This document shows, one piece after another, positions 44,039 through 60,618 of a stretch of DNA of 64,000 bases. The notes beneath the pieces are model-generated. The model made no database searches and was not told the DNA's origin. It was given only the letters and a program-made list of their open reading frames with translations. Source of the DNA: Plebeiibacterium marinum (GTDB lineage Bacteria; Bacteroidota; Bacteroidia; Bacteroidales; Marinilabiliaceae). The first letter of the stretch is position 1. Every line of letters starts with the position of its first letter. The stretch is from assembly GCF_026013615.1 (NCBI RefSeq), contig NZ_JAPDPI010000001.1, positions 186,001 through 250,000 on the forward strand, in the 5' to 3' direction. The translations under genes were made by a program, and so were the position numbers.

Positions 44039-44108
44039 ACTTATAGGAATATGACAATTATAAACAAAAAAACATCTTGCATGTATTATATAGCTTCGCC
44101 TCCTCAAT

Positions 44109-44122
44109 CCCAATTAATTGGG
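44109..44122. promoter_or_regulatory. Perfect 14-bp palindrome at the head of the polysaccharide operon
   Basis: CCCAATTAATTGGG reads the same on both strands. It lies about 70 bp upstream of the preferred start of the first gene, in the only non-coding stretch at the head of the 44-kb operon. It could be a binding site for a dimeric regulator. It may be chance in AT-rich DNA, and I could not pair it with a clear -33/-7 promoter. Confidence 0.3.
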
Positions 44123-44338: not shown

Positions 44339-45304
44339 CTATTCATTACACCAGCAATCACTTACACTATAAGTACCCCAATTTCTATCATCCACAAATT
44401 CATTTCCGTCACTCCAAGCTGTCTCTTCCCAATATTCCTCACCTACCATTTTCGAAACAACTGCATGAGCAGCAACCACCCAGCAGTCACATTCTAAGTT
44501 CAACAGATAATCCGACGGAATTACAAATATCCCACCATCAACCATATCTTCACTCATATTATATGGGAAATGGCCAATTTGTGGATTCCCACTTTTATTA
44601 ACTGGAATATCACCCAAACACCCTACATACAAATGAGCATCTTCCAATTTATACCCTTCATCAATAGCATACTTAACATACAAATCTCCATTTTCTTTCC
44701 ATACAATCAAATCCCCAACATCATAATGCTGCGCCGCTATTATATCTATTACCTCTATACAGTCTTCACATTCCTCCCAACAAAATTGAATAAAGAAATC
44801 AAAACTATCCAAATTATCATTTGTCAAATACCAATGATCCCTTGAACCATCAATTACATTCTGAGTAAAGATTTTCAATGATAACGGCATGCAAACATCC
44901 CAATTATCTCCTCTCGGAATTTTAAATGTCACTTCTGATTGGTATTCCGCTTCTGGAAAAACAATCTGATAAGGAAAGTCTTCATGGGTAAAAATACGAG
45001 GAATTTCCCCTTCCCATATAGTAAGGTATAACTTCTCTATTACCCAATCTTCTTCTGCAACAACCTTTACATATAAGAAATTTTCATCATTAAAAATGGA
45101 AACATTTGCTGAGCTAAAAAATGGAAACTCTTTTACCTCCGAACATGATTCAAAATCATTATCTCCAATAAAGTATTCCCAACCATTCATTGCCACCTTC
45201 AAATTGGCCTGAGGTCGCGTTGCCTCTTTGTCTTTGACATCACATGAAGCAAATATCAATAATCCCAAAACAACAAAACTTAATTTCCGTGCTATTTTTT
45301 TCAT
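44339..45304 (-). CDS. Lipoprotein with a duplicated domain, function unknown
   Basis: 321 residues. A lipobox ends in LLIFASC (C21), so the protein should be lipid-anchored. The mature part is acidic and Cys-rich. It consists of two similar halves of about 125 residues: LYVKVVAEEDWVIEKLYLTI in the first matches LYVKYAIDEGYKLEDAHLYV in the second, each followed by a G(E/D)IP turn, an FPY motif and a (K/V)IP strand. A Cys-containing linker (FCWEECEDCIEV) joins them. I do not recognise the family. It is a single-gene unit between the two polysaccharide loci, insulated by the terminator at 44253-44289. Confidence 0.75.
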   Translation of the reverse strand: MKKIARKLSFVVLGLLIFASCDVKDKEATRPQANLKVAMNGWEYFIGDNDFESCSEVKEFPFFSSANVSIFNDENFLYVKVVAEEDWVIEKLYLTIWEGEIPRIFTHEDFPYQIVFPEAEYQSEVTFKIPRGDNWDVCMPLSLKIFTQNVIDGSRDHWYLTNDNLDSFDFFIQFCWEECEDCIEVIDIIAAQHYDVGDLIVWKENGDLYVKYAIDEGYKLEDAHLYVGCLGDIPVNKSGNPQIGHFPYNMSEDMVDGGIFVIPSDYLLNLECDCWVVAAHAVVSKMVGEEYWEETAWSDGNEFVDDRNWGTYSVSDCWCNE

Positions 45305-45565: not shown

Positions 45566-45928
45566 ATGGCCTGTAACTACCTCATCATATCAGAAGACAT
45601 TGTATTTTCGTCTATTATTCAAAGGTATTTGCTGAATAGCTTCTCAAAACCTTATATAAAAACGTGCAACTCCTTCTCTTCACTTAAAGGGCTTAAAGAC
45701 AATGAAAACTTTGATATTATTTTGCTTGACAATTCAATTACAGGAGCTGCTAACTACGAGGTAATTACCTTTTTACGTCACAAAAAAAGCATTACAACTC
45801 CGGTTATCTATTTCAGCAACATGGAAATTGATATTGAAAAAGCACGACAAAAAGGAGCCAATATATTTTTTAAAAAACCTTTTGTCCCCACAGAGGTTAT
45901 TAAGGAAATCAATAGTTTATTAAACTAA
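45566..45928 (+). CDS. Stand-alone response-regulator receiver domain
   Basis: 120 residues from the ATG at 45566; an upstream in-frame ATG at 45488 would add an unlikely leader. It is a complete receiver fold with no output domain. E10-D11 form the acidic pair, D55 in IILLDNS is the phosphoacceptor, S84 is the switch Ser/Thr position and K104-P105 the conserved Lys-Pro. All catalytic residues are present, so it should be phosphorylated by a histidine kinase, none of which is nearby. It is the first gene of the plus-strand polysaccharide operon, 19 bp before the TPR/barrel gene, and probably controls synthesis or assembly by protein-protein contact. Confidence 0.85.
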   Translation: MACNYLIISEDIVFSSIIQRYLLNSFSKPYIKTCNSFSSLKGLKDNENFDIILLDNSITGAANYEVITFLRHKKSITTPVIYFSNMEIDIEKARQKGANIFFKKPFVPTEVIKEINSLLN

Positions 45929-45947
45929 TTACTCAATTTATCGGAAC

Positions 45948-47177
45948 ATGATAAGATTATTACATATAACCATTTTATCTCTATTTGCGGTTTGCACAAT
46001 GGCTCAAACAAACATTGACTCCTTGTTTTCGGTGGCCATTGATCATTCAAGAGCTGAAGAATATGACCTGGCTGTTCAAAAAGCGGCTCAGGTAGTTCAA
46101 CTGGACTCAACCCGAAATGATGTAAAAGTGTTTATGGCCAATGTTTATGCATGGCAACAAGATTATAATACTTCCAAAGAATATATCAGCCAGGTTTATG
46201 CCATTGACCCAAACAACAATGAACTATACGAAACCTGGTTAAATGTACTGTTATGGAATAAAGAATATAAAAAGTTATTATCTATTATTGATACGGCAAA
46301 AACAAATGGTTACAACAACGATTACAACCTTACGTTGAAAAAGGCATTAGCCTACCAAGGACTTGAAAGATATTCTGCCGGAATAAACTTCCTGAACCAG
46401 AATAAATCCTTGCTCGATTCTGCCGACATCCGATATTTATACAACAACCTGAAAAGATCGGCCAGTAAAAACACTATATCAGCTTTTTACTCCATTGATT
46501 TGTTTGAGAACAACACACCAACCCCACACCACCTGGCATTTGTTGACTACAGCACTAGTGTTGAGCAAACCATTTTTATTTTCAGGTGCAATTATGCTTA
46601 CAGGTTTGAGATTGATGACATCCAACCTGAGATAGATATTTATCACAATTTTGACAATGGACATTACCTGTTCGCCAACTATGGCTTTGGAATTAACAAC
46701 AAATTATTTCCCCGCCACAGGGTTGGACTGGAATATTTTTTCCCTTTTGGCAATAACTTTGAAGCCAGTGCCGGGGCAAAATTCTTTAATTACCCTAGCG
46801 ATGATGTAATAGTTCTTACAGGTCATTTAGGAAAATACGTTTCTAATATGTGGTTATCATTGCGCCCATATTACACCATAAAGGAGGGTAACAACTCTTT
46901 TTCATCTCTGTTTAACATGAGAATTTACGACAATAACCAGGTTGGTTATTATGGTTTAGAACTTGGTTACGGCAACTCTCCTGATGACAGGTCGAGATAC
47001 GCCCAGCCCATCGGAAGTATTTGGCTAAGTGCCTATAAGATTAAACTGGAAAGGAATTTTGCCATCTCCCACTCAAACGAAGTGAGGGTTGGGGCAGGAT
47101 ATGTATATGAAGAGATTAGCCAAAACTCATATCGAAACAGGTTTTTATTTGAAATCCTATTAAAACACCGATTCTAA
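45948..47177 (+). CDS. YaiO-family TPR plus outer-membrane beta-barrel protein
   Basis: 409 residues. After a signal peptide (to about A19) come TPR-like helices to about residue 165 (YDLAVQKAAQVVQLDSTRND is a clear repeat). A YaiO-type barrel then follows, with alternating strands such as YANYGFGINNKLFPRHRVGL, ending in a C-terminal Phe as BAM substrates do. A periplasmic TPR domain joined to an outer-membrane barrel is the architecture of PgaA, the PNAG exporter. With a synthase gene two genes downstream, this is a candidate export pore for a synthase-made polymer. Confidence 0.85.
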   Translation: MIRLLHITILSLFAVCTMAQTNIDSLFSVAIDHSRAEEYDLAVQKAAQVVQLDSTRNDVKVFMANVYAWQQDYNTSKEYISQVYAIDPNNNELYETWLNVLLWNKEYKKLLSIIDTAKTNGYNNDYNLTLKKALAYQGLERYSAGINFLNQNKSLLDSADIRYLYNNLKRSASKNTISAFYSIDLFENNTPTPHHLAFVDYSTSVEQTIFIFRCNYAYRFEIDDIQPEIDIYHNFDNGHYLFANYGFGINNKLFPRHRVGLEYFFPFGNNFEASAGAKFFNYPSDDVIVLTGHLGKYVSNMWLSLRPYYTIKEGNNSFSSLFNMRIYDNNQVGYYGLELGYGNSPDDRSRYAQPIGSIWLSAYKIKLERNFAISHSNEVRVGAGYVYEEISQNSYRNRFLFEILLKHRF

Positions 47178-47178
47178 C

Positions 47179-48414
47179 ATGCGTGCTATTTATATCATAA
47201 ATATAAGGCGTTTCTTTAAAAGGCTATTCCAAACATTAGCTATTGGCATTCCTGTGTTGGGTTTATATTTTTTATACCAACCGGAAATATACTTTAACGA
47301 TTATGTTTTTATTAACCCTGTATTTCCCCGTTTTAAGTGGTGGCAATGCCTGGTGGTATACTTTATAGCAATCAATGCGGTTGGTGTATTACTATTTACC
47401 GGTTTTAGTCTGTTTTACACCTATCGCCGTACGCACCACGAAAAGATTTTGCCCCGACTTTCAAACGCATTTACAAACTTAGTTGTAGAATATTTATACT
47501 CAGAAAAATACCAGGACGAGAAAGAAAAGGAAGCCCTGTTTAAAAAGCTCAGGTATTTTTCAAAATACAAACTTCATGTAGAAGCCCTGTTTATTTCCAT
47601 TACCAGGATTCAGGAAACCGTTGCTGTCAACCACAGTCCTCATTTTAAAGAATTGTTGGATAAGGTAGACCTGTATAAAACTATCGACCGCTTTTTATAT
47701 TCCTATAACCTAAGTGACAGAATATTGGCTATGAGGATTATTTCTTACCTCAGACTCAGGGATGAGAGGTACGAAAAAAGGATCTATAAATATTCCGATT
47801 CAAAAAACTATGCCCTCCGTACCGAAGCCTATGGAGCGCTTATCCGTTTGATGGAGGGAGAAAATCAACTGGCAGATTTTATTGGGAGCAAATACAATTT
47901 ATCATTGTTCGACATCAATATTACAGTTAATGCTGTGATCAAAAATCACAAAATGAATATTGATTATATCGATTTCCTGTCTTCTGATTTAAACAGAAAG
48001 ATCATTACAGGCTTAATACTGGCCAAATACCGTTACAGGAAAGGATCCAGGAGCCTGATCCTTATCCTTAACTTTATCGGACATCAGGATTATCTGCTGA
48101 ACCGGTTGGCATGGGATTCATTCTTAAAACTGGTTCCGAAAGATGAAGGTGTGGATATTATAGTTGACCGGTTTAACCAGGAACCCGACGATATTAAGTT
48201 TATGATTTTAAAAGATTCACATGAAACGGGAAGCGAAACCTTCCATAAATTTTTACAGGAAGTGATTACCAACAGCTCCCTGATGATCAAAATTGAGGCA
48301 ATGAAAATCCTTTTTAAAGAAAATTTTGATTTTATATTACCCTTTGTAAACTCAGAGGATAAAGAGATAAAAATGGCCTTGCAGGAAGTTTCAGACCTGA
48401 ATATAAATCAGTAA
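47179..48414 (+). CDS. Two-TM HEAT-repeat protein
   Basis: 411 residues. Two membrane segments near the N-terminus (about 17-34 and 52-75) are followed by an all-alpha region of HEAT-like repeats to the C-terminus (for example SDRILAMRIISYLRLRDERY and NYALRTEAYGALIRLMEGEN). HEAT arrays are protein-binding scaffolds. It starts one base after the YaiO-like stop and ends 4 bp before the GT2 synthase gene. This suggests a dedicated inner-membrane partner of the synthase, in the position PgaD, BcsB or Alg44 take elsewhere. No catalytic motif is visible. Confidence 0.78.
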   Translation: MRAIYIINIRRFFKRLFQTLAIGIPVLGLYFLYQPEIYFNDYVFINPVFPRFKWWQCLVVYFIAINAVGVLLFTGFSLFYTYRRTHHEKILPRLSNAFTNLVVEYLYSEKYQDEKEKEALFKKLRYFSKYKLHVEALFISITRIQETVAVNHSPHFKELLDKVDLYKTIDRFLYSYNLSDRILAMRIISYLRLRDERYEKRIYKYSDSKNYALRTEAYGALIRLMEGENQLADFIGSKYNLSLFDINITVNAVIKNHKMNIDYIDFLSSDLNRKIITGLILAKYRYRKGSRSLILILNFIGHQDYLLNRLAWDSFLKLVPKDEGVDIIVDRFNQEPDDIKFMILKDSHETGSETFHKFLQEVITNSSLMIKIEAMKILFKENFDFILPFVNSEDKEIKMALQEVSDLNINQ

Positions 48415-48418
48415 ACAA

Positions 48419-49846
48419 ATGGCATACATAGATACTATACATTACGTTTTTAATCTGCTCTTTTTGATATATGGATCAACGCTGTTTGTTTCCTATATCT
48501 TAATTGGTATTTTCTCCAGTTTTGAGTTGAGTTTTTATTCCAAACGCAACAAGTTTTTCAACTTCACCAATGTTTCTGAATATAAACTATTACCAACCAT
48601 TTCAATTATTGCACCATGTTATAATGAGGAAAAAAGTATCATCCAAAACGTAAGAAGCTTACTATCCCTCCAATACCCCGACGTAGAGGTCATCATTGTA
48701 AATGATGGAAGCAAGGATGAAAGCCTGGATTTGATGATTAACCATTACGAACTGGTAAAGGTAAATTATTCGTACGAAGCAAAACTGGAAACGGCTGAGA
48801 TCAGAGGAATCTATAAATCAACAAATGTTGCATATGCCAACCTGATTGTAATTGATAAAGACAACAGAGGCAAGGGAGATGCATTAAATGCCGGAATCAA
48901 CGTGAGCCGTTCAGAACTGTTTCTGGGTATAGATGTGGACTGCATCATCGAACCGGATGCCATTTTCAGGATGGTAAAACCTTTCCTTGAAGAAGAGCAA
49001 GGCAAAAAGGTAATTGCCTCAGGAGGTGTAATCAGGGTTGCCAACTCTTGTAAAATTGAAGAAGGTAGGATTACTAAAGTCAATTTTCCTAAAAATCTAT
49101 GGGCTCAATTTCAAATACTTGAATACTTCAGGGCCTTTATCCTAAGCCGTATGGCCTGGAGTAAAATCAATGGGCTATTGATTATTTCCGGCGCCTTTGG
49201 ATTGTTTGACAGGAAGATTGTTCTCAATTGCGGGGGCTACGACCGCGATACGGTTGGCGAAGATTTAGAACTGGTGATGCGCATGAGGAACTATATGCAC
49301 ACAAAAGAAAAAACACCCTATAAAGTGGCATTTGTTCCCGATCCTCTATGCTGGACTGAGGTCCCTACTTCGTTAAAAACCCTTGGCAGACAACGTAACA
49401 GATGGACAAGAGGATTAATCGATTCCTTGTTTAAACATAAAAAAATGCTTTTGAATCCCAAGTTTGGACGGATAGGACTGATTGCATACCCATACTGGGT
49501 TTTATTTGAATGGCTGGGCCCCATAATTGAATTTATTGGAATAGTGTATTTTTTTACCATGCTTTATTTTGGGATGATTAACATTACATTCTTTATTCTG
49601 TTTACGATATTTATTTTTTCATTTTCCTTGCTATATTCTTCATTTGCCATTTTTTATGAAAAATATATTTTTGGAAGATACCGGGGAAACCAGTTCATCC
49701 TAAAAATTATTTTGATTTCGATTTTAGAAATGGTTTTATACCATCCACTAAACCTTGCTTTTTCTCTTTCCGGAAACTTTGATTTCTTTTTCAGGAAAAA
49801 CAAAAAAGGATGGGGTAAAATGAAAAGAGAAGGTTTTAATTCTTAA
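48419..49846 (+). CDS. Processive-type membrane glycosyltransferase family 2 (PgaC/synthase-like)
   Basis: 475 residues. An N-terminal TM (about 10-33) leads into a cytoplasmic GT-A domain and C-terminal TMs (about 345-450). Catalytic signature: APCYNE (65-70), D96 in VNDGS, DVD (172-174), SGAFGLF (257-263), GED (280-282) with the base Asp, and QRNRWTRG (325-332), the Q-x-x-R-W of processive synthases. It should make a beta-linked homopolymer or simple repeat and push it through its own TM channel. It is the core of the plus-strand locus. The sugar is unknown; a deacetylase encoded downstream makes an N-acetylhexosamine plausible. Confidence 0.92.
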   Translation: MAYIDTIHYVFNLLFLIYGSTLFVSYILIGIFSSFELSFYSKRNKFFNFTNVSEYKLLPTISIIAPCYNEEKSIIQNVRSLLSLQYPDVEVIIVNDGSKDESLDLMINHYELVKVNYSYEAKLETAEIRGIYKSTNVAYANLIVIDKDNRGKGDALNAGINVSRSELFLGIDVDCIIEPDAIFRMVKPFLEEEQGKKVIASGGVIRVANSCKIEEGRITKVNFPKNLWAQFQILEYFRAFILSRMAWSKINGLLIISGAFGLFDRKIVLNCGGYDRDTVGEDLELVMRMRNYMHTKEKTPYKVAFVPDPLCWTEVPTSLKTLGRQRNRWTRGLIDSLFKHKKMLLNPKFGRIGLIAYPYWVLFEWLGPIIEFIGIVYFFTMLYFGMINITFFILFTIFIFSFSLLYSSFAIFYEKYIFGRYRGNQFILKIILISILEMVLYHPLNLAFSLSGNFDFFFRKNKKGWGKMKREGFNS

Positions 49847-49858
49847 AAGTTTTGTAAT

Positions 49859-50749
49859 ATGGGAACAAAAGACAATATACAAAACGACAGCAATCTTGTT
49901 TTAGGTTATTCAATTTCAAGTATTGAAATCACCGACAAAAAGCAAGAAACATTTATGTCCATCTTCAACGATGTTTCAAGCCTTCAAAACGAAAAAAATA
50001 ATGGCAAGCTTCAATCAATTGTTGAAAGGCTTGACGAATACGCATTAAACGAACTATCTACGGAAGAAAAATTAATGCAGGCAGCCGGGTATAAAAATTT
50101 TGAAAGCCATCTTTCCCATCACAAACTATTTTATTCCAGACTAAAGCAATTTAAACTGGAATATAAATACAACAACCCTTTTTTAGCCAACAACATATTA
50201 CATTTCTTAAAAAAATGGCTGGTATCCCATATTTTACAAGAGGATAGAACCTGCAGAGAGATTCTGTTTGAAAAAGGATTGATTCAAAAAGCCCAGATCT
50301 TCCACAATAACTTATTCCCATACAGCGACAGCAGGGTTGAACTTGGCAACTACAATATTGGAATTGAGTTAATCGACAGGCAACAAGAAGTTTTTATGTC
50401 CATTTTCAATGATATTTCAAAACTACAGAATCAAAAGGTTAATGGAGAAATACAATCCATCATAATACGTTTGGAAAACTTTTGTTCTAACGAGTTAAAA
50501 AAAGAGGAAGAACTACTAAGCCTGGCCGGTTTTAAAAATTATGAAGAACATATAGAACAACATAAGTTATTTATTTCAAGAGTAAACCATTTTAAGGTAG
50601 AGTATGATTACAACCATGCTTTTTTGGCAAGTAACATACTTCATTTTTTAAAGAAGTGGCTCATCACCCACATATTTAATAAGGACAAAGAATTCAGGGA
50701 GTTGGCTTTTGAATACAACAACTCACCCAACAACATTATTAGAGCATAA
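49859..50749 (+). CDS. Tandem hemerythrin-like protein with altered metal ligands
   Basis: 296 residues made of two hemerythrin-like four-helix domains (about 15-140 and 162-286), alike to each other. Mapped on the classical ligands, each keeps the three His of one iron site and both bridging acids: H84, H88, H124, E69 and D129 in the first copy, and H231, H235, H271, E216 and D276 in the second. The two His of the other iron are replaced identically in both copies, by Gln (Q29, Q176) and Glu (E65, E212). No signal peptide; cytoplasmic. It lies 12 bp after the synthase gene and may sense O2, NO or redox state for it. Confidence 0.8.
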   Translation: MGTKDNIQNDSNLVLGYSISSIEITDKKQETFMSIFNDVSSLQNEKNNGKLQSIVERLDEYALNELSTEEKLMQAAGYKNFESHLSHHKLFYSRLKQFKLEYKYNNPFLANNILHFLKKWLVSHILQEDRTCREILFEKGLIQKAQIFHNNLFPYSDSRVELGNYNIGIELIDRQQEVFMSIFNDISKLQNQKVNGEIQSIIIRLENFCSNELKKEEELLSLAGFKNYEEHIEQHKLFISRVNHFKVEYDYNHAFLASNILHFLKKWLITHIFNKDKEFRELAFEYNNSPNNIIRA

Positions 50750-50760
50750 AAAGCAAATTC

Positions 50761-51474
50761 ATGAGATTATTATACCTCATAATAATATTTACATCATGTT
50801 TTGCCGTGATAAAATCTCAAAACAAAGAAGAAATCTACTTTAGTGGCTTTGAATGGATTAACAAGATATCTCCGGACCCAACCGGACCTGGGAACAACAT
50901 TTTTGGAACACACCCAAAGAATGTAACCCTGGATAACAACGGGAATGTGACACTAAGAATCCGGAGAAACTCTTCTTGTGCCGAGATATTCTCAAAACCC
51001 ATTTTTAAAGAAGGAAGATATGAAACGACCATTGTTACCAATACAAAAACCTTTCACCCTTATATGGTGTTCGGAATATTTTTGTACGATCACAGTGCAG
51101 CTCCTCATTATAATGAAATTGATATAGAATATTCACTCTGGGGAAGAAACGAAAACAAAAACATGCAGTACGCCGTACATACAAATAGTGGAACCAAAGT
51201 TCACAGATTCAGTTTTAAAAAGAAAAAAACGGTTATTAAACACATTATTGACATTACGAATGATTCCATACATTTTAAAAGTACAGTATATGAAAAAGCC
51301 CATAACAGATTACTAACATTAAGTGAGATATCATATCCAAGGCCAGAAGAATTTGCCTTTAACAAAACAAGGTTCCATTTTAACCTGTGGCTAATGAATA
51401 AAGACATAAAAGTGGTTAGTCATTTCCCAAAAGTAAAAATACTTGATTTTAATTATCACCCATCAACAAAATAA
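50761..51474 (+). CDS. Secreted GH16-like (laminarinase/agarase-fold) protein
   Basis: 237 residues with a signal peptide (cleavage near Q20). One jelly-roll domain follows. HYNEIDIEYS holds the GH16 catalytic motif ExDxE: E119 (nucleophile), D121 and E123 (acid/base). Aromatic strands such as FAFNKTRFHFNLWLMNK close the sheet. Standard GH16 enzymes cleave beta-1,3/1,4-glucans or galactans. As part of the synthase operon it may trim, release or remodel the polymer in the periplasm. It is at the short end for GH16, and its substrate is unknown. Confidence 0.78.
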   Translation: MRLLYLIIIFTSCFAVIKSQNKEEIYFSGFEWINKISPDPTGPGNNIFGTHPKNVTLDNNGNVTLRIRRNSSCAEIFSKPIFKEGRYETTIVTNTKTFHPYMVFGIFLYDHSAAPHYNEIDIEYSLWGRNENKNMQYAVHTNSGTKVHRFSFKKKKTVIKHIIDITNDSIHFKSTVYEKAHNRLLTLSEISYPRPEEFAFNKTRFHFNLWLMNKDIKVVSHFPKVKILDFNYHPSTK

Positions 51475-51517
51475 GACAAAGGACATTACAAAATCCCCAA
51501 TTAACATCTGCAGATAA

Positions 51518-54217
51518 ATGAAAAAAATGAGATCATTCCTACTTATAGCAAGCATCATTTTCCTATTCTCGCCATACGGTAAAGCGCAAAATTTTAATGG
51601 GACAATACTCGACCAATACGGATCACCCATTATAAATGCGTCTGTTACCATTTATAATAATTTTAACAGCAGTCAGAAAAGCAGAACATCCACCGACTCT
51701 AATGGAGCATATTCCCTATCTGTTGCAGAAAATTCAAATCCTGATATACTTTATGCCTACGCAACAAGCGATCAGCTATCATACAAGCTAAACTTCTCAT
51801 TTGCATTAAAAAAGGAATCTAAATTAGATATAACAATCTACGACCTTCAGGGCAAAGAAATTGAACACATATATTCGGCCACATGCCCTGAAGGAATACA
51901 AAATTTCACCTGGGATTATTCACACCTCAACAACTACCTCAACCAACGAATCTTCCTGATAAACTTCAGGTCGCAAAACTCAGGTAAAACGGTAAAATTT
52001 GCTCATTTCAATACCCAACGGATTGATTTTTATTTTGAGCATTTAGAAACTGAAGATTTTAATAGTTCAAATGTGGCCAACAATACCTACACTGCCGTTA
52101 TTGAAGGGGAAGGATTTAATACCCATACCGACAGGCTTATAAAACCGGAGGATACCGAACAAAACTTTATTATTAACAAGGAATACTATATTCCATTTAA
52201 GTGCGGCAAAAAATATATTGAGCAATATGAAGGAGATACCTATACCCCATTTTATATAAAAGGGATTAATCTTGGAGCTGCAATACCTGGAACCAGTCCG
52301 GCCGAGATGGCACCAAGTTCCGAACAATATGCTATGTGGTTCAGCATGATGAAACAGGCAGGTTATAACCTCATCAGAGTATACACCCTCCATTATCCAC
52401 GGTTTTATCAGGAACTAAAGAAATTTAATGAAGCAAACCCAGAATCTCCTTTATATTTAATGCACGGAGCTTGGTTAGATGAAGAATATGAGGGATTTGA
52501 CGGACAGGCAAATTTATTTACCAGTGAAATAAAATTTGTTAGGGATGTAAATATCAGCACTGAATTTGAAACAGCACCCATATCTGAATACTTTGACAAC
52601 CGAATAAAAGAAGTTATTGATGTCGTTCACGGCAACGCAACACTTCCGGAGAGATGGGGTTGGGCTTCGGGTAAATACACTGCAGATGTATCGCCCTGGA
52701 TTCTGGGCTACATCATGGGACGTGAAATATATGCTAATGAAGTATATTACACAAACTTGCTCAACCCGGATATCAACTCCTATGAGGGAGAAGTATTCAG
52801 TTTACTACATGGAACAGCCTCTGAAGTATGGGCTACAGAAAGGCTTGACAAAGCAATGACCTATGAAAAGGATGAATATATGCAACAGCATCCGATTAGT
52901 TTTTCAAGCTGGCCAACCCTGGACCCAATTGAACACCCTACAGAACACGGACCCGAAGACATGGTTGATATTGATCTTGACAAAATTGATGAAACCCATG
53001 CTCCTGCCGGATATTTTGCCAGCTACCATGTTTATCCATATTTTCCGGATTTTATGAGCTGTGATCCTTCATATACCGATTATACCGATTATATGGGCTC
53101 CAACAGCTATCTTGGCTATTTAAATGATTTAAAATCCCAATACACTAACCGACCACTAATCATTTCGGAATACGGCGTATCAAGCAGCTGGGGAACCTCA
53201 CGTTTTTCCTCCAATGGAATGCACCATGGTGGATTGACAGAGCAAGAGCAGGGTAATTATATTGTCAGGATGATGCACAATATAAAAGACTCAGGCTGTG
53301 GTGGGGGTATTTTGTTTTCATGGATAGATGAATGGTTCAAGTTTGTATGGATATTCGGCGAAACTACCCATCCCTCAACCAGAAACAGATGGCATAATAT
53401 TTATAATGCAGAACAAAACTATGGCCTGATAACTTTTATTCCTGAAGAAGCAGATTTTTCACAATTCGGATATTCTTCAAATGATGAAAAAATTGACCAA
53501 ATACGGGTCTCTTCCGACATTGAAGGATTATATGTTAAGCTTAAACTAAAAGCAAAATTTGAATCTAATGATACCATATGGGTTGCCCTGGACACCTACA
53601 ACAAAGCAAAAGGAGAATCGATATTGCCTAATAACAAAAGAGTTCGCAACCGATCTGAATTCTGCGTAAGCATAACAAAAGCTGAAGCTAACCTGTACGT
53701 TACAAAGGCATACGATATGTATGGTATTGGACAGGAGGGTTTCCCTGCCAGCGGACAATATTTCAGGTCTATTGCTACCAATGGGAATGGCTGGAACAAA
53801 GTTAAATGGAAAAATCACAGAGACATCAATTACTGCGCTGGTTCAGAATTTGACGCCGGATACCTGAGAATAAGAGATGAAAATAACCCCAAACGTAGTG
53901 ATGCTATCATTATAAAAAGAAACGAAATTATTGTAAAACTTCCCTGGGCAATGATTAATTTCAACGACCCTTCCCAGTTAAAGGTAGCACATATTACAGA
54001 CTATCGTTTACATGGCGGAACAAATTACAACCAAACGGTAGAGTCAGATGGGGTAGCGGTTACTGCATTCTGGGGCGACTGCCATGTGAGCACACCAAGA
54101 TACCTTTGGGATAAATGGGATTCTTATTCAATGCCTCCTACAAAAGAATATAAAAAATCATCTTATTATATTGTAAAAGAAGCATTAAAAAACTATCCTG
54201 CTTATATCAAAGAATAA
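51518..54217 (+). CDS. Large secreted glycoside-hydrolase-like protein (clan A type barrel)
   Basis: 899 residues. A signal peptide ends near A23. Next is a carboxypeptidase-regulatory-like domain (about 26-90, GTILDQYGSPIINASVTIYN), then a segment that reads like a T9SS tail (LDITIYDLQGKEIEHIYSAT) but lies inside the protein. A TIM barrel follows at about 230-620, starting FYIKGINLGAAIPG. Its candidate acid/base is E408 (or E403) in GREIYANEVYY and its nucleophile E551 in LIISEYGVSS. A C-terminal domain (about 655-899) looks carbohydrate-binding. It is probably the hydrolase counterpart of the C-terminal half of PgaB. No exact family is assigned. Confidence 0.75.
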   Translation: MKKMRSFLLIASIIFLFSPYGKAQNFNGTILDQYGSPIINASVTIYNNFNSSQKSRTSTDSNGAYSLSVAENSNPDILYAYATSDQLSYKLNFSFALKKESKLDITIYDLQGKEIEHIYSATCPEGIQNFTWDYSHLNNYLNQRIFLINFRSQNSGKTVKFAHFNTQRIDFYFEHLETEDFNSSNVANNTYTAVIEGEGFNTHTDRLIKPEDTEQNFIINKEYYIPFKCGKKYIEQYEGDTYTPFYIKGINLGAAIPGTSPAEMAPSSEQYAMWFSMMKQAGYNLIRVYTLHYPRFYQELKKFNEANPESPLYLMHGAWLDEEYEGFDGQANLFTSEIKFVRDVNISTEFETAPISEYFDNRIKEVIDVVHGNATLPERWGWASGKYTADVSPWILGYIMGREIYANEVYYTNLLNPDINSYEGEVFSLLHGTASEVWATERLDKAMTYEKDEYMQQHPISFSSWPTLDPIEHPTEHGPEDMVDIDLDKIDETHAPAGYFASYHVYPYFPDFMSCDPSYTDYTDYMGSNSYLGYLNDLKSQYTNRPLIISEYGVSSSWGTSRFSSNGMHHGGLTEQEQGNYIVRMMHNIKDSGCGGGILFSWIDEWFKFVWIFGETTHPSTRNRWHNIYNAEQNYGLITFIPEEADFSQFGYSSNDEKIDQIRVSSDIEGLYVKLKLKAKFESNDTIWVALDTYNKAKGESILPNNKRVRNRSEFCVSITKAEANLYVTKAYDMYGIGQEGFPASGQYFRSIATNGNGWNKVKWKNHRDINYCAGSEFDAGYLRIRDENNPKRSDAIIIKRNEIIVKLPWAMINFNDPSQLKVAHITDYRLHGGTNYNQTVESDGVAVTAFWGDCHVSTPRYLWDKWDSYSMPPTKEYKKSSYYIVKEALKNYPAYIKE

Positions 54218-54269
54218 AATTTACCATACTAAACTTATTATACATTTGAACACCATTAATAGAAATCAT

Positions 54270-55127
54270 ATGCAAAAAATAATATTAATATTGATATCCG
54301 TTGTTTTTTTATCCTCATGTGATAAATCAGAAAACTGCAAGGAATGCGTAACTGTTTGCGAAGAATGTGACTGTGATTGGCCTGAAATGGAAGAAGATAT
54401 TTTGCCCCCTGTGGATGTACCTGTCCGCGAAAATCCCAAGGTAATTGTTTTACTTTATCACAATTTAGTTTATGGAAGAACGGGAAATATTTACAATCGC
54501 GACATCTACAATTTCGAAAATGATTTGATCTATATCCGAAAAAACTTTAAAGTAATCGACTTTAACGAGTTGGATAAAATTAACAATGGCGAAATGACAT
54601 TAACGCAAGACGCCGCCATTATTACTTTCGATGATGGGGATCTGTCTATACACCCCATAGCATTTCCACTTTTAAAAAAATACAACTTAAAGGCCACATT
54701 TTTTATTGTTTCATCCTATGTTGGAGAAACTGGCTATGTTTCTTGGGATCAGCTCAGAGAAATGGCAAATTATACCAACCCTGATTCCGAAAGAATATTC
54801 ACCATGGGATCACATACCGCCACCCATGCATCTTTAGGAGACATCAGTATCGATGAAGCAGAACTTGAATTACTGGTATCAAAACAAGCCATTGAATCTG
54901 AACTAAATGTGGATGTTGAATATGTGGCACTACCGTATGGGAGCGGTGCCGATGACCCTCAAATCCAGGCCAAAGCTAAACAAGTCGGGTACAAGGGGTT
55001 AAGAAACTCTAACCCCAAAGCAATTTCAAATTTTCCCATAGAAATGTACAATATCCCATCTGTAAATATTGAGAATTACAGTAATGATAAATTTGTTACA
55101 TATGTAAATGAATTATTGGGCAGATAA
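54270..55127 (+). CDS. Polysaccharide deacetylase lipoprotein (NodB domain)
   Basis: 285 residues from the ATG at 54270 (MQKIILILISVVFLSSC, lipid-anchored at C17); a TTG at 54246 is less likely. A Cys- and acid-rich linker (21-40) precedes a NodB domain: ITFDDGD with D121 as base and D122 as metal ligand, and SHTATH with H182 and H186. The Asp-His-His triad is complete, so metal-dependent de-N-acetylation is expected. It matches the N-terminal half of PgaB in role: a surface or periplasmic lipoprotein acting on the newly exported polymer. It follows the hydrolase-like gene by 52 bp. Confidence 0.88.
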   Translation: MQKIILILISVVFLSSCDKSENCKECVTVCEECDCDWPEMEEDILPPVDVPVRENPKVIVLLYHNLVYGRTGNIYNRDIYNFENDLIYIRKNFKVIDFNELDKINNGEMTLTQDAAIITFDDGDLSIHPIAFPLLKKYNLKATFFIVSSYVGETGYVSWDQLREMANYTNPDSERIFTMGSHTATHASLGDISIDEAELELLVSKQAIESELNVDVEYVALPYGSGADDPQIQAKAKQVGYKGLRNSNPKAISNFPIEMYNIPSVNIENYSNDKFVTYVNELLGR

Positions 55128-55166
55128 CATTATCTTAACATTTACCATGCAAAACCTATAGTTTGT

Positions 55167-55207
55167 CAAAAAGCTTTTAAGTATGATTTTATAAGCCTTG
55201 CTTTTTG
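55167..55207. repeat. 8-bp inverted repeat in the gap before the CotH gene
   Basis: CAAAAAGC (55167-55174) and GCTTTTTG (55200-55207) form an inverted repeat with a 25-base loop, in the largest gap (124 bp) of the operon. It could be a weak attenuator or terminator that sets the CotH-lipoprotein-DUF2490 genes apart. There is no T-run after the stem, so this is a tentative call. Confidence 0.25.
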
Positions 55208-55251
55208 CATCCGGTGCTAAATACATTTAGTATACTTGCAAAAAATTTTTC

Positions 55252-58200
55252 ATGCACTCAACCACATCAAGCAAGGCTTACTTAATTACCATACTAAACC
55301 TGCTTATCTGCTTCCAGTTACCTTCGCAGATAAAAATTAATGAATTGGTTTCATCAAATTCCAATACTCTTATGGATGAAGATGGAGACTATCCTGATTG
55401 GGTAGAATTCATCAACACATCTGAAAACACTATCAATCTGGCTACATATTCGTTTACTGATGATATTGAAAATCCAACCAAATGGAATTTCCCGGACATC
55501 AATATTCATCCAGATGATTTTCTTGTACTTTTCACATCTGGAAAAAACCGTTTAAAGCAAATTGGTTCATGGCAAACCATCATTAACAAAGGGGCACATT
55601 TTAAATACCTTGTCCCCAATAGCGAAATTGGCAACACCTGGAAAGATACTGGTTTCAACGATCAAAACTGGTCGGAAGGAGCCTCCGGATTTGGTTATGG
55701 AGACGATGATGATGAAACAATAATTGATCCTGCCATTAGCCTTTATGTAAGAAAAGAGTTTGAAATTTCAAACCTTGAAGAAATATCGGATATAGCTTTC
55801 CACATAGACTATGATGATGGTTTTATTGCTTATATCAACAGGATTGAAATTGCAAGAGACAAACTAGGCACTGCTGGTTCTCCCGTTTCCTTTGACACCC
55901 CTTGTGATGATTACAGCCATGAGGCACTTATTTATCAAGGAAAACAACCCGACAGTTTTGAAATAGCCAATGTTTCGGAACTACTGAAACAAGGAACAAA
56001 TGTTTTAGCAATTGAGGTTCACAATCATACAGCAACCTCTTCCGACCTATCCTGCATACCATTTTTATCGCTGGGGTTAAAACCCAAAGGATTGGATATT
56101 CCAACAGAATATTTTGAACTCGACAAAATGAACCTTCACACAAACTTTAAGATAAAGAGTCTGGGTGAACCCGTATACCTATTCAACAATTTGCAGATGG
56201 TCGATTCTGTTTGTGCAAAATATCTGCCATCTGACATGTCCTATGGCAGAAAACCTGACGGAAGCACAAACTGGCTTTATTTTGCCACCCCAACCCCAAT
56301 GGCATCCAACACAACCAAAGGGTACAGCACCTTAACTGAAGATTCCGTATTTTTTTCTATGCAAGGGGGCTATTTTTCAAACACCATATCACTTGAGTTA
56401 TATTCAAAAAATGGAGCAAGCAACAATATATTCTATACAACCGATGGATCAAGCCCCGACATCAACAGCACAAGATATCAGCATCCCATTCAAATAAATA
56501 CCCATAGTGCTATCAGGGCACGGATCATTGATACAGATAAACTTCCCGGGCCCGTAACAACCAATACTTATATATTCGGACAGCAACATAACTTACCCAC
56601 TGTTTGTTTATCCACATCGCCTGACAATTTATGGGATTACAATTCGGGAATTTATGCCGATGGCCCGAATATGGAACCCGATTACCCACACTTTGGTGCC
56701 AACTATTGGCAAGATTGGGAAAAGCCCGTACATTTTGAGTTTTATGATAAAAATGGAATTAAACAAGTTGACCAACTTGCAGGCTTAAAAATATTTGGCA
56801 ATTACTCAAGAAGCCATCCCCAAAAATCATTCTCATTATTTGCCCGCAATAAATATGGGAAAGGTGCATTTAAGTATAAATTCTTCACCGATAAAGAAAA
56901 CAACGAATTTGAGTCTTTAGTTCTACGAAACTCTGGTAGCGATTATTATAAATCACACTTCAGGGATGGATTATTATCTTCATTGGTAAAAGAAATTGAT
57001 CTTGAATACCAAGGCTTTCAACCTACTGTAGTGTATTTAAACGGCGAGTACTGGGGTATTTTAAATCTAAGAGAAAAAGTAAACGAACATTTTATTTCTG
57101 ATAACTCATATGTCAAAACAGACAACCTCAACATTTTGGAAATAAATGGACTTGCTATACAAGGCAACAATATGAGATATGAAGAAATGCTAAATTTCAT
57201 TACTTATAACGATCTGAATACTGAAGACAACTACAAAACAGTTAGTGACATAATTGAAGTTGACAATTTTATCAATTACTTCTTATTCGAAACTTTTATT
57301 GCTAACGGTGACTGGCCGGGGAACAATATAAAATACTGGAACACAAACAGCATCAGGAGCAAATACAGGTGGATTGTATTTGATACCGATTTTGGTTTTG
57401 GTTTGTTTGGAGATGAGCTGTACAAATACAACTCCATTGCCGATGCCTTAGCCTCTGATAATCCTTCATGGCCTAATCCGCCATGGTCAACATTATTATT
57501 TAGAAAACTAACCACAAATGAAGATTTCAAGGAAAAATTTGCTCAAAAAGGATGCGATTATTTAAATACTTATTGGGAATCTTCTAAAGTAATTGATCAG
57601 GTCAACACTATTGAAACCCTGATTGATAATGAAATGGAATACCATTGCGAAAGATGGAATTTAGATTATAATGAATGGCATAACGAAGTAGAAAGACTTA
57701 GAATCTTTGCTGATGAACGGCCTTTTTATTTCCGCCAGTTTCTTGGTGAAGCCATGGGTTTTGACGAAAACTATTCCATTGAAGTAGAAACTTTCCCCTC
57801 CGAGTCCGGAAAAGTTAAAGTAAACTCAATCTATCCCGGCGAATACCCATTCTACGGATCATATTTTGAAAACATCCCGGTGAAACTAAAAGCAATTCCT
57901 AATCCTGGTTATAAATTTGCAGGTTGGGAAGGTGATGTGGAAAGCTCCGATACAGAAATTACATACCCAATCAATGATAATTACTTCCACCGGGCTATAT
58001 TTGAACCTTCGTCTGAAGAAAACCATAAGGTTATCATCAACGAAATTTTCTATAAATCAACCGGAAACTTAAAACCCGGTGATTGGATTGAACTATATAA
58101 CAACGGAGAAACTACCGTGGATTTAAAGGGATGGACTTTACGTGATGCTAATAAAGATTCTGCATATATTGTTCCTTCTTCGTATTATTTAGCTCCGGGA

Positions 58201-58803
58201 GATTTCATCGTCTTTTGTAAAGACATTCAAAAATTTAAAACCATTTACCCCAACATAAAAAATGTAATGGGGAATTTTAGTTTTGGTTTAAATGCTGATG
58301 GAGACCATATCAGGCTATTTAACCAGAACAACACATTAATTGATGCAGTTGATTACTATCCAACAGGCGTATGGCCTTTAAAATCCTACAACCAAAGTGC
58401 TTCAATTGAGTTGTCGCACCCAAGGCTCAATAATGAAAAAGGCGAAAACTGGATGTCTTCAGAAAACGGTGGGACACCAGGAGAGCATAACCAATGGCTC
58501 ATTGACAATAGCATACATGATATCAAAAACAAGCTGAACGCAAGTTTAAGCTGCGCTCCAAACCCAATTACAAACCATGCTAACATAACATTTCAGATAC
58601 GCCAGACAGGAAAATATCATCTTGACCTGGTTAATATAAATGGAGCGGTAGTACACCAGCTATCCAGCCAACAGTATAACATTGGCATCCATACTGTTTA
58701 TATTTCTGAAGACCAGCTGGCTTCTTTAAAAAATGGCGTATACCTGATCAGACTAATGGGCAACAGAGGATTAGAAACAATTAAAATAATAAAAAAACAA
58801 TAA
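55252..58803 (+). CDS. T9SS-exported CotH kinase with lamin-tail domains
   Basis: 1183 residues. Order: a short hydrophobic N-terminus, lamin-tail domain 1 (about 24-75, INELVSSNSNTLMDEDGDYP), a beta-sandwich region, a chitobiase-C-like domain (FYTTDGSSPDINSTRY), and the CotH kinase domain (about 430-800; VLRNSGSDYYKSHFRDGL, LNGEYWGILNLREKV, metal-binding D711-T-D713). An InlB/bacterial-repeat segment (AIPNPGYKFAGWEGDV) follows, then lamin-tail domain 2 (about 925-1030, VIINEIFYKSTGNLKPGDWI) and a type A T9SS sorting tail. CotH proteins are atypical secreted kinases. It is probably surface-attached and may phosphorylate a protein or glycan of this system. An internal promoter could lie in the 124-bp gap upstream. 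Confidence 0.9.
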   Translation: MHSTTSSKAYLITILNLLICFQLPSQIKINELVSSNSNTLMDEDGDYPDWVEFINTSENTINLATYSFTDDIENPTKWNFPDINIHPDDFLVLFTSGKNRLKQIGSWQTIINKGAHFKYLVPNSEIGNTWKDTGFNDQNWSEGASGFGYGDDDDETIIDPAISLYVRKEFEISNLEEISDIAFHIDYDDGFIAYINRIEIARDKLGTAGSPVSFDTPCDDYSHEALIYQGKQPDSFEIANVSELLKQGTNVLAIEVHNHTATSSDLSCIPFLSLGLKPKGLDIPTEYFELDKMNLHTNFKIKSLGEPVYLFNNLQMVDSVCAKYLPSDMSYGRKPDGSTNWLYFATPTPMASNTTKGYSTLTEDSVFFSMQGGYFSNTISLELYSKNGASNNIFYTTDGSSPDINSTRYQHPIQINTHSAIRARIIDTDKLPGPVTTNTYIFGQQHNLPTVCLSTSPDNLWDYNSGIYADGPNMEPDYPHFGANYWQDWEKPVHFEFYDKNGIKQVDQLAGLKIFGNYSRSHPQKSFSLFARNKYGKGAFKYKFFTDKENNEFESLVLRNSGSDYYKSHFRDGLLSSLVKEIDLEYQGFQPTVVYLNGEYWGILNLREKVNEHFISDNSYVKTDNLNILEINGLAIQGNNMRYEEMLNFITYNDLNTEDNYKTVSDIIEVDNFINYFLFETFIANGDWPGNNIKYWNTNSIRSKYRWIVFDTDFGFGLFGDELYKYNSIADALASDNPSWPNPPWSTLLFRKLTTNEDFKEKFAQKGCDYLNTYWESSKVIDQVNTIETLIDNEMEYHCERWNLDYNEWHNEVERLRIFADERPFYFRQFLGEAMGFDENYSIEVETFPSESGKVKVNSIYPGEYPFYGSYFENIPVKLKAIPNPGYKFAGWEGDVESSDTEITYPINDNYFHRAIFEPSSEENHKVIINEIFYKSTGNLKPGDWIELYNNGETTVDLKGWTLRDANKDSAYIVPSSYYLAPGDFIVFCKDIQKFKTIYPNIKNVMGNFSFGLNADGDHIRLFNQNNTLIDAVDYYPTGVWPLKSYNQSASIELSHPRLNNEKGENWMSSENGGTPGEHNQWLIDNSIHDIKNKLNASLSCAPNPITNHANITFQIRQTGKYHLDLVNINGAVVHQLSSQQYNIGIHTVYISEDQLASLKNGVYLIRLMGNRGLETIKIIKKQ

Positions 58804-58805
58804 GT

Positions 58806-59210
58806 ATGAGAAACACACTTACGCTATTAGCTTATATCCTGTTAATATCCTTATACTCCTGCGAAAAAGAAGCTGGAGAAGGAGGAATGGCAACAATCAG
58901 AGGAAAGGTAATTATTGAAGATTACAACTTCGATTTCACTATTTTAAGAGACACCTATCCTGCCCAGGCATATGATGTGTACATTATTTATGGAAAAGAT
59001 GAGTTTTATAGTGATAAAATAGAAACCAGTTATGATGGCTACTATGAATTTAATTATTTAAGGGAAGGAGATTACAAGATATTTGCCTACTCAAAAGATA
59101 AAACTTTAGATTATAACGAAACATCAGAACGTATTGCCATCATCAAAGAGGTTTCCATTACTTCAAAAAAGCAAACAGTTCAGGTTGAAGATATTATTGT
59201 TGCAAAATAA
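58806..59210 (+). CDS. Small lipoprotein with a carboxypeptidase-regulatory-like domain
   Basis: 134 residues. The lipobox ISLYSC gives C19. The rest is one beta-sandwich of the Cna-B/carboxypeptidase-regulatory type: MATIRGKVIIEDYNFDF opens it, and YEFNYLREGDYKIFAYSKD is the usual closing strand pair. Such lipoproteins serve as surface scaffold or binding modules; no enzymatic motif is present. It begins 2 bp after the CotH gene and ends 7 bp before the DUF2490 gene, so the three are co-translated neighbours. Confidence 0.75.
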   Translation: MRNTLTLLAYILLISLYSCEKEAGEGGMATIRGKVIIEDYNFDFTILRDTYPAQAYDVYIIYGKDEFYSDKIETSYDGYYEFNYLREGDYKIFAYSKDKTLDYNETSERIAIIKEVSITSKKQTVQVEDIIVAK

Positions 59211-59217
59211 GAACATA

Positions 59218-59907
59218 ATGAAAAGGTTACTTTTTACATTTTTTACATTATCCTTTTTTGCCAATATTGTTTATGCTCAGCAAGAAGATTTTTCATCCTG
59301 GTACAACCTTTCTGTTAATGGGGAATTATTTAAAAAACTTGACTTCTCGATAGAACCGGAGCTGCGTATCTTCGAAAACTCAAGCCAATTAGAGAGTTGG
59401 CAAATACAATTCAACCTTTCAACTAAAGTGAAAAAATGGTTGGATGTTGGCTTGGCATACAGGTATCAGGTGGAATATGACGACCCAAGAAAAAACGAAC
59501 GCATCCACCGCATTGCAGGCTTCTCAAAATTTGGATATAAAACCGGGAAGCTAAGGTGGAGTTACCGGGCTCAAATACAAAGCGAACAAGCAAATATTAA
59601 TTCTTCGGAAGATGGATATGTGAAGCATATTGAACACAGACATAAAATTGGTGTGAAATACCGAAACAAAAAATGGTTCTGTGAACCTTCAGCTGGTATA
59701 GAATATTTTTTCTGTCTGGCACCCACCAAAGACAAAAACAGATGGAAAAACCGCTTATTTGTTACAATTGAAAAGGATATTTCCAAACGTATCTCCGGTA
59801 CAATATCTTATAAACGCCAGGAAGAATTTAATGTGGCAAATCCAGATATAACTAACATAATACAAGTAGGTATTGAGTACAAACCCAAATGGTTAAAAAT
59901 AAAATAG
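59218..59907 (+). CDS. DUF2490-family outer-membrane barrel protein
   Basis: 229 residues from the ATG at 59218, which gives a clean signal peptide (MKRLLFTFFTLSFFANIVYA); an upstream in-frame start inside the lipoprotein gene does not. The mature part is alternating beta strands, with DFSSWYNLSVNGELFKKLDF and YRYQVEYDDPRKNERIHRIA as the DUF2490 pattern, so it should be a small outer-membrane barrel. The family is common in Bacteroidota and uncharacterised. It is the last gene of the operon; a possible role is anchoring or exporting CotH-modified surface material. Confidence 0.85.
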   Translation: MKRLLFTFFTLSFFANIVYAQQEDFSSWYNLSVNGELFKKLDFSIEPELRIFENSSQLESWQIQFNLSTKVKKWLDVGLAYRYQVEYDDPRKNERIHRIAGFSKFGYKTGKLRWSYRAQIQSEQANINSSEDGYVKHIEHRHKIGVKYRNKKWFCEPSAGIEYFFCLAPTKDKNRWKNRLFVTIEKDISKRISGTISYKRQEEFNVANPDITNIIQVGIEYKPKWLKIK

Positions 59908-60066: not shown

Positions 60067-60618
60067 CTAGGCTGTTTTAATCTTATACCCCACATTTACT
60101 TTACCTTTCGATATGGCCGCCAGTTTACCCTTTAAAAACCTTCTTTTAAGCGGAGAAAGATGATCTGTAAACACTTTGCCTTCCAAATGGTCATACTCAT
60201 GTTGAACCACACGGGCTACAAAACCTTCCAACACCTCTTCAATTACCTCAAAATTTTCATCCTCATATTCAATCTTGATCTTGGTTGGTCGCTTTACATC
60301 CTCCCTGATTCCCGGTAAGCTCAAGCATCCTTCTGACTCCACGCATTCATCCTCCCCATATTCAGTAATAACCGGATTGATCAACACCCGTTTAAAATCT
60401 TTACATTCAGGATATTCATCAGATAATACATCAGCATCAATAACTGCCAAACGAATTGGTTTTCCGATTTGCGGAGCAGCCAAACCCACCCCGTCAGACT
60501 TGTACATAGTTTGCCACATGTCATCAAGCAGTTCTTTTAATCCATTGTAATCCTCATCTATTTCTTCAGCCTCCCTTCGTAAAACCGGGTGACCATATAG
60601 TACAACTGGTAATATCAT
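60067..60618 (-). CDS. def: Peptide deformylase
   Basis: 183 residues. Removes the formyl group from the N-terminal Met of new proteins. All three family motifs are intact: [10 protein letters not shown] (43-52), EGCLSLPG with metal ligand C98, and QHEYDHLEG with H140, catalytic E141 and H144. Length is standard. Its start overlaps the stop of the upstream RuvX gene by four bases (ATGA), so both are made from one transcript. This is a housekeeping gene. Confidence 0.98.

Follow-up and report, generated by a model that had tools for sequence, protein, structure and literature searches.

A HEAT-repeat protein, a processive-type glycosyltransferase, a YaiO-family barrel and a receiver as the core of a putative polysaccharide system in Bacteroidia

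What kind of machine is encoded by the eleven plus-strand genes that form one directon at positions 45566–59907 of a 64,000-nucleotide stretch of the Plebeiibacterium marinum genome (contig NZ_JAPDPI010000001.1, positions 186,001 to 250,000; this whole stretch is referred to as the window)? An earlier note, made from the sequence alone, had proposed an undescribed synthase-dependent polysaccharide system. Here we argue that the locus encodes a system for polysaccharide polymerisation and secretion of the synthase-dependent type that works independently of cyclic diguanylate (c-di-GMP). Its core would have four parts: a receiver-only response regulator (RR), a TPR protein with a YaiO-family outer-membrane barrel, a membrane-anchored HEAT-repeat protein and a family 2 glycosyltransferase (GT2). 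We give this reading a probability of about three in four. It draws on gene content, conserved linkage, co-occurrence across genomes, sequence motifs and the fact that no GGDEF protein was found in the genomes that carry the core.

The conserved four-gene core

We searched 295 genomes of the class Bacteroidia with the window GT2 (E ≤ 1e-30), which yielded 46 places in 40 genomes. Up to 20 kb was examined around 41 of these places, the remainder being the window itself and four others. A scan of genome contigs for relatives of the locus added one, L009, which was also examined. A direct single-sequence search with the window HEAT protein reached only 2 of the 295 genomes, its own included. Such a search was too weak because the family is too divergent, and a profile grown from the window protein solved this. 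A gene lies immediately upstream of GT2 in 41 loci, and the profile matched it in 40 of them; L079 was the only one of the 42 class loci without HEAT. Strong profile matches (E ≤ 1e-20) numbered 41 in the 295 genomes, and all 41 were beside this GT2, so that chance adjacency of the two was rejected. Another 13 matches, in 11 genomes, were weaker (E 1.6e-11 to 8.5e-7) and not near GT2; they covered the profile only partially and were taken as generic HEAT repeats outside the family. In L061 (10780–14064), a divergent open reading frame (ORF) of 1,094 residues beside GT2 matches both the HEAT profile and that of LTA-synthase-like proteins.

The barrel follows the same distribution. The YaiO model TIGR04390 (E ≤ 1e-8) matched in 39 of the 295 genomes, and these are exactly the 39 genomes that have a strong HEAT match; of the 40 YaiO places, 36 are at most 8 kb from HEAT and four are on a contig other than that of HEAT. 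The receiver falls in a cluster of 29 loci, the window among them, in which the phospho-acceptor Asp, one Asp of the acidic pair and the Lys are each invariant (29/29). As conserved linkage is seen for the first four genes (not for all eleven), the set is more than a product of chance. Conserved co-occurrence of the HEAT, GT2, hemerythrin-like and YaiO genes had been set beforehand as a test of the proposal. The HEAT, GT2 and YaiO parts of this expectation held, and the hemerythrin-like part failed, as that gene was found in 2 of the 77 loci compared. The receiver, which had not been part of that expectation, belongs to the core.

The window barrel is a member of the YaiO family (TIGR04390, 133.2 bits against a cut-off of 32; PF19413, 1.5e-46) and the sole YaiO found in its genome. 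The window HEAT protein itself gave no Pfam match. Pfam HEAT_2 was found in all three of its homologues that were scanned, one of which also carries LysM, and HEAT proteins of solved structure are among the matches of the family profile. The protein had been described as a HEAT protein with two transmembrane (TM) helices; the HEAT assignment stands, and only one helix (residues 58–76) is clear. At least one TM helix was predicted in 64 of 66 HEAT proteins, a count that excludes L061 (ORF above 800 residues) as well as L046 and L072 (fragments at contig ends). HEAT proteins of about 520–690 residues (L040, L043, L053, L057, L060) have a long N-terminal extension ahead of the TM helix; L053 carries LysM, and L040 and L043 appear SPOR-like by eye, a hint of peptidoglycan contact.

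In the Pfam scan, the window GT2 showed GT2-type domains only. The motifs D, DxD, ED and QxxRW were invariant in all 39 aligned homologues, so that a GT2 without processive motifs was rejected, and hydropathy peaks were found at residues 361–379, 387–405 and 426–444. By these motifs and C-terminal TM helices the enzyme is of the processive type, as had been claimed, and polymer synthesis is predicted. Its best NCBIfam model was PgaC_IcaA (136.7 bits, 1e-39; cut-off 422.3), and it reached 48.5 bits with the cellulose synthase (CelA/BcsA) model, which has a cut-off of 699.1. None of the Pga and Bcs family cut-offs tested was reached, which agrees with the original placement of the locus among synthase-dependent systems outside Pga and Bcs.

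Candidate control and spread of the core

Next, we focused on how the synthase may be controlled. The search for GGDEF proteins came back empty for all 39 class genomes with the core (controls were positive in 8 of 14), and the window's own genome yielded neither GGDEF nor PilZ. Control by c-di-GMP, as in Pga, Bcs and Nfr, is therefore unlikely, and we rejected it. As there is also an intact receiver as the first gene, the simplest inference is that a phosphorelay is used instead. Many of the class loci have hybrid histidine kinases nearby; these form a cluster that spans 13 loci and of which one member was scanned. Bacteroidota that do not have c-di-GMP need another way to control their matrix, and the core, present in 39 of the 295 class genomes, is a concrete candidate.

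In the mechanism that we propose, GT2 in the inner membrane would polymerise a nucleotide sugar and thread the chain outward. The HEAT protein, with an N-terminal TM anchor and a cytoplasmic solenoid, would be its steady partner and would fill the place that PgaD/IcaD or BcsB have elsewhere. The stand-alone receiver, phosphorylated by a histidine kinase, may dock on the HEAT solenoid or on GT2 and thereby switch synthesis, replacing c-di-GMP. The TPR/YaiO protein would act as periplasmic guide and outer-membrane pore, and the NodB protein, the GH16-like enzyme, the clan-A-like hydrolase and the CotH protein, exported by the type IX secretion system (T9SS), may modify, trim or decorate the product.

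The pair of HEAT and GT2 is not confined to the class. A search of 296 genomes of the phylum gave GT2 matches in 87, of which 55 are outside the class. From these 55 we hand-picked 20 regions, mostly with stronger GT2 matches, and HEAT was directly beside GT2 in 15. Among plasmid records, 66 matched the GT2 in tblastn; of the 14 best ranked (31–47% identity) 12 were examined, the other two being left out as they are from the same species as one examined. HEAT was directly upstream of GT2 in 12 of these 12 records, whose hosts are Emticicia, Bacteroides, Paenibacillus, Planococcus, Halosolutus, Haloarcula, Salinirubellus, Mesorhizobium, Erythrobacter, Devosia, Deinococcus and Legionella. The pair thus reaches Proteobacteria, Deinococcus, Bacillota and haloarchaea. 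Two of the core-bearing hosts, Emticicia oligotrophica DSM 17448 and Mesorhizobium ciceri WSM1271, are culturable. Among weaker plasmid matches (27–29% identity), L117 and L121 were scanned and gave no HEAT-profile match, and L123 and L124 have no HEAT annotated.

We take 7 of the 12 named hosts to have an outer membrane and the other five to be single-membrane. A barrel above the YaiO cut-off was found near the pair in 4 of the 7 (Emticicia, Mesorhizobium, Erythrobacter, Legionella). The Bacteroides finegoldii barrel is below the TIGR04390 cut-off (26.2 against 32 bits), although our own YaiO profile spans almost its whole length. In the single-membrane hosts, no YaiO-profile match was found within 5–6 kb either side of the pair (5/5). 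The distribution of YaiO by host envelope fits an outer-membrane pore, although the numbers are small. The plasmid copy of Bacteroides finegoldii (L109, 5770–13540) consists of HEAT, GT2, a long TPR/YaiO-like protein and a DUF4838 protein, and the DUF4838 cluster (one member scanned) was also found in 7 class loci.

To place the synthases, we created a GT2 tree of 81 rows by a quick method, with midpoint rooting and long branches flagged. It drew on 77 loci; L120, whose record splits the GT2 gene, was left out, and L106 gave no GT2 match. All 68 HEAT-linked GT2s were found in one fork of 71 rows (support 96), together with L088, L104 and NfrB, and PgaC, YaiP and BcsA were outside it in this quick tree.

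RR, HEAT and GT2 may even form a regulatory class of their own among synthase-dependent polysaccharide machines, common to bacteria and archaea, in which the phosphorylated receiver docks on HEAT, the standing partner of the synthase, and so starts polymerisation. Two-component signalling would then directly take the role that c-di-GMP has in Pga, Bcs and Nfr; the TPR/YaiO pore would be added in hosts that have an outer membrane, and CotH-family, LTA-synthase-like, NodB and glycoside-hydrolase modules would diversify the product. We put this forward tentatively, at a little below even odds. If true, the switch between receiver and HEAT would make the system a class of its own.

Accessory genes and the candidate product

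The order, strand and short spacing of the eleven genes (Table 1), as first described, were borne out by the ORFs. The genes on either side (44339–45304 and 60067–60618) are on the opposite strand. Within the core the gaps are 19 (RR–YaiO), 1 (YaiO–HEAT) and 4 bp (HEAT–GT2), followed by 12 (GT2–hemerythrin-like), 11 (hemerythrin-like–GH16), 43 (GH16–hydrolase) and 52 bp (hydrolase–NodB, counted from the ATG at 54270). The gap of 124 bp between NodB and CotH is the sole exception to the range of 1–52 bp, and the last two gaps are 2 (CotH–lipoprotein) and 7 bp (lipoprotein–DUF2490). Scans for sigma-70 promoters (64 against 64.5 expected by chance) and terminators (16 against 12.1, standard deviation 3.0) were at or near chance level and were not used. 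Pfam and NCBIfam scans covered ten of the eleven proteins, leaving out the small lipoprotein. A separate polysaccharide locus next to the directon, of the Wzx/Wzy type, occupies the minus strand of the window at 403–36984; among its 32 listed ORFs, 10 were scanned. It includes MBOAT, group-1 glycosyltransferases, the EpsG family, a flippase-like protein, a Wzc-like protein and UDP-GlcNAc 2-epimerase.

Table 1. Genes of the directon, with window coordinates and their standing among related loci.
Feature	Position	Strand	Standing	Supporting evidence
Receiver-only response regulator	45566–45928	+	core	PF00072 Response_reg 2.2e-8; without output domain
TPR + YaiO-family outer-membrane β-barrel	45948–47177	+	core in Bacteroidota	TIGR04390, PF19413
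Membrane-anchored HEAT-repeat protein, 411 aa	47179–48414	+	core; proposed synthase partner	family profile
Processive-type GT2 synthase, 475 aa	48419–49846	+	core	PF13641 2.6e-23
Tandem hemerythrin-like protein	49859–50749	+	local extra	NF033749 7e-41; two bacteriohemerythrin stretches
Secreted GH16-like enzyme	50761–51474	+	local extra	PF00722 21.5 bits, just under cut-off of 22.0
Clan-A-like hydrolase family, 899 aa	51518–54217	+	recurrent accessory	no catalytic Pfam match
NodB-type deacetylase lipoprotein	54270–55127	+	occasional accessory	PF01522 Polysacc_deac_1 5.2e-20
CotH kinase-like, lamin-tail, T9SS-secreted protein	55252–58803	+		PF08757 3.8e-44; TIGR04183 33.9 bits
Small lipoprotein, 134 aa	58806–59210	+		lipoprotein-like N-terminus by eye
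DUF2490 outer-membrane barrel	59218–59907	+		PF10677 2.7e-18

Outside the core, the clan-A-like hydrolase recurs, which had not been claimed before: nine proteins of this family were found in 7 of the 77 GT2-centred loci, in three phyla. Two candidate catalytic residues, Glu403 and Glu551, are invariant in five aligned proteins, and both are retained in the proteins aligned from Bacteroidota and Deinococcus. The hydrolase is fused with TPR in Deinococcus and with a NodB-like domain in L079. Profile searches against the PDB gave nothing usable and Pfam gave none either, and an AlphaFold2 prediction (3 sequences; predicted local distance difference test, pLDDT, 31) was not used. A further family, which we call C4 (about 390 residues; motifs DYYG, DTYG and EFN), was found in 17 loci, for example at L044 (11388–12554). 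The member scanned had no Pfam or NCBIfam match, and in Paenibacillus (L110, 1791–4892) C4 is fused to the clan-A-like hydrolase. Both families are candidates that may be of use in degrading or altering biofilm polymers.

The hemerythrin-like protein had been proposed as a sensor, and this claim found no support. Among the 77 loci the gene was found in only two, the window and L009, which is its closest relative. In an alignment of the first domain of the protein to DcrH, Gln and Glu replace two His among the seven positions that we take to be metal ligands, and the second domain shows the same two changes by eye. As two ligand His are replaced, the sensor idea is weak, and from this alignment and the distribution over the loci we rejected hemerythrin as a conserved sensor.

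The GH16-like enzyme hints at glucan-like links in the product, and the synthase could in principle make a β-glucan or mixed polymer that is trimmed by this enzyme and the clan-A-like hydrolase. The ExDxE motif is intact (NEIDIE in the window, NEIDFE in L009), there is a weak PDB profile match (E 0.058) to a 1,3-1,4-glucanase, and the hydrolase family recurs across phyla as described above. The predicted model (pLDDT 52.8) matches ConA-like and GH16 folds, many of them plant lectins, and gives a hint of the fold only. However, none of the 77 loci other than the window and L009 yielded GH16, NodB requires an N-acetyl sugar, and the score of the window GT2 with cellulose synthase is far below that with PgaC_IcaA. 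We therefore regard a β-glucan or mixed polymer of this kind as distinctly unlikely.

Other hints point to an amino sugar, namely the NodB protein (motifs TFDDG and HxxxH by eye) and, in Halosolutus, GlmS and a sugar-phosphate nucleotidyltransferase that adjoin the HEAT–GT2 pair; taken together the hints to the product are mixed. The Legionella adelaidensis locus contains a nucleotide-sugar dehydrogenase and epimerases. The locus could be a divergent form of the poly-GlcNAc (PNAG) system Pga/Ica: GT2 would then synthesise this polymer, to be de-acetylated by NodB and exported through the TPR-barrel, with HEAT as an unrecognised substitute for PgaD. The best models of both enzymes, PgaC_IcaA for GT2 and PgaB/IcaB for the deacetylase, speak for this, as do the Halosolutus genes. 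Both scores, however, are far below the cut-offs (45.9 against 321.9 bits for the deacetylase, which has a single NodB domain and not the two domains of PgaB). The barrel is YaiO and not PgaA, the PgaC of E. coli is outside the HEAT fork, and a window-like NodB was found in just one further Bacteroidia locus (L079), weakly in L117 and as a sub-cut-off match in L064. A divergent PNAG system is thus unlikely. L079, the variant without HEAT, contains NodB, GT2, a TPR-barrel and the hydrolase, the latter fused to a second NodB-like domain (a sub-cut-off Pfam match).

The window CotH protein is a member of the CotH family (PF08757, 151.9 bits against a cut-off of 23.8) with putative kinase activity. 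Its T9SS tail would also fit a surface glycan whose role is to tether or glycosylate T9SS cargo, such as CotH and lamin-tail domain (LTD) proteins, rather than a matrix polymer, and so would a gene on the opposite strand, about 2.4 kb upstream, that appears PorP/SprF-like by eye. Yet the core pair is also found in Bacillota, haloarchaea and Proteobacteria, in hosts that are not known to have T9SS, and among the 77 loci a close relative of the window-type CotH was found elsewhere only in L043 (5e-46). We consider a role in cargo attachment very unlikely. The minus-strand region adjoining the directon (42236–44113) appears by eye to encode the PorP/SprF-like protein and a protein with a gliding-motility C-terminal domain. 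Further away (37559–38692, minus strand), a gene has a weak phmmer match (5e-4) to the window CotH protein, perhaps through a common T9SS or lamin-tail part.

In five Bacteroidota loci, a smaller CotH-family gene separates YaiO from HEAT; in a sixth, L056, it immediately precedes HEAT, and L043 and Planococcus gave partial matches. The link of these genes to Pfam CotH comes from one member. As the profile of these small proteins misses the larger window CotH, CotH recurs at the family level only. In other loci an LTA-synthase-like protein is fused to GT2 or encoded near it. The GT2 ORFs of L054, L058, L066 and L075 are 1134–1260 residues long and cluster with LTA-synthase-like proteins. Of these, the ORF of L054 was scanned; it matches Pfam Sulfatase in its C-terminal part, which suggests phospho-decoration of the product. 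The small lipoprotein and the DUF2490 barrel had no relative in the 77 loci (phmmer).

Several of these results weigh against a four-part, c-di-GMP-independent system. HEAT is absent from 5 of the 46 class GT2 places (four at 36–38% identity, one at 33%), being present at the other 41, and from 5 of the 20 regions outside the class (L088, L104–L107). The receiver cluster holds only 29 loci, not every locus, and a receiver gene was found near the pair in only 7 of the 12 named plasmid records. In Devosia and Deinococcus, what was found of the barrel protein was its TPR part alone. The chance value of 1e-49 for YaiO with HEAT was counted over related genomes and thus overstates independence. On the GT2 tree, made by a quick method, the HEAT label needs three changes; NfrB is inside the HEAT fork on a very long branch, and the joining of PgaC and YaiP was flagged as possibly false. 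As the search for the hydrolase covered GT2-centred loci only, its link with GT2 is partly by construction. Of its two candidate Glu residues, the Planococcus protein has neither and the aligned Paenibacillus copy has one. As NodB is rare and GH16 and hemerythrin are local, the polymer cannot be read from them.

Relation to known systems

We found no description of YaiO, HEAT and GT2 as one system in the literature searched, in which subscription papers were thinly covered. The main text of an operon survey (PMC7112194) mentions neither 'HEAT repeat' nor 'YaiO'. The core gives a testable function to poorly known families, namely the YaiO barrels and the HEAT proteins that adjoin GT2.

The division of labour in the window is that of Pga/Ica, with a processive-type GT2, a TPR-barrel, a NodB deacetylase and a hydrolase. 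The parts differ, as Pga has PgaA as barrel and PgaD with c-di-GMP where the window has YaiO, and HEAT with RR. No PgaA model matched the window barrel, and E. coli PgaA matches the PgaA models and not TIGR04390. The yai locus of E. coli, yaiS–yaiP–(yaiX)–yaiO, is a closer named relative of the barrel than PgaA. Like the window, it has a TIGR04390 barrel (182 bits in E. coli), a GT2 with PgaC_IcaA as best model below the cut-off, and a deacetylase. Unlike the window, it has no HEAT or RR annotated, and its deacetylase is BshB-like and not NodB. The yai locus is annotated as putative, and we found no study of it in the literature searched; the core described here bears on this locus in E. coli K-12. 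A plasmid search with E. coli YaiP returned almost only Escherichia and was not used.

Among the listed matches of our general scans there was no Pel or Alg model; no search was aimed at either. PMC7112168 reports CotH and DUF4956 beside pel loci of Gram-positive bacteria. As in our loci, a CotH-like gene thus adjoins a polysaccharide synthase locus (in Planococcus DUF4956 does so too). The synthase machinery of these Pel clusters is a different one, whereas the CotH-family genes found here accompany GT2 and HEAT.

NfrA/NfrB, the glycan receptor of phage N4 in E. coli, is the nearest described small system in plan. According to PMC8669472 and PMC8669469, it makes a secreted polysaccharide, and the GT2 of NfrB carries an MshEN c-di-GMP domain. 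Like the window core, it combines a small GT2 with a TPR-barrel. The window GT2 differs from NfrB in having GT2-type domains only, and the nfrBA–ybcH operon has no HEAT partner.

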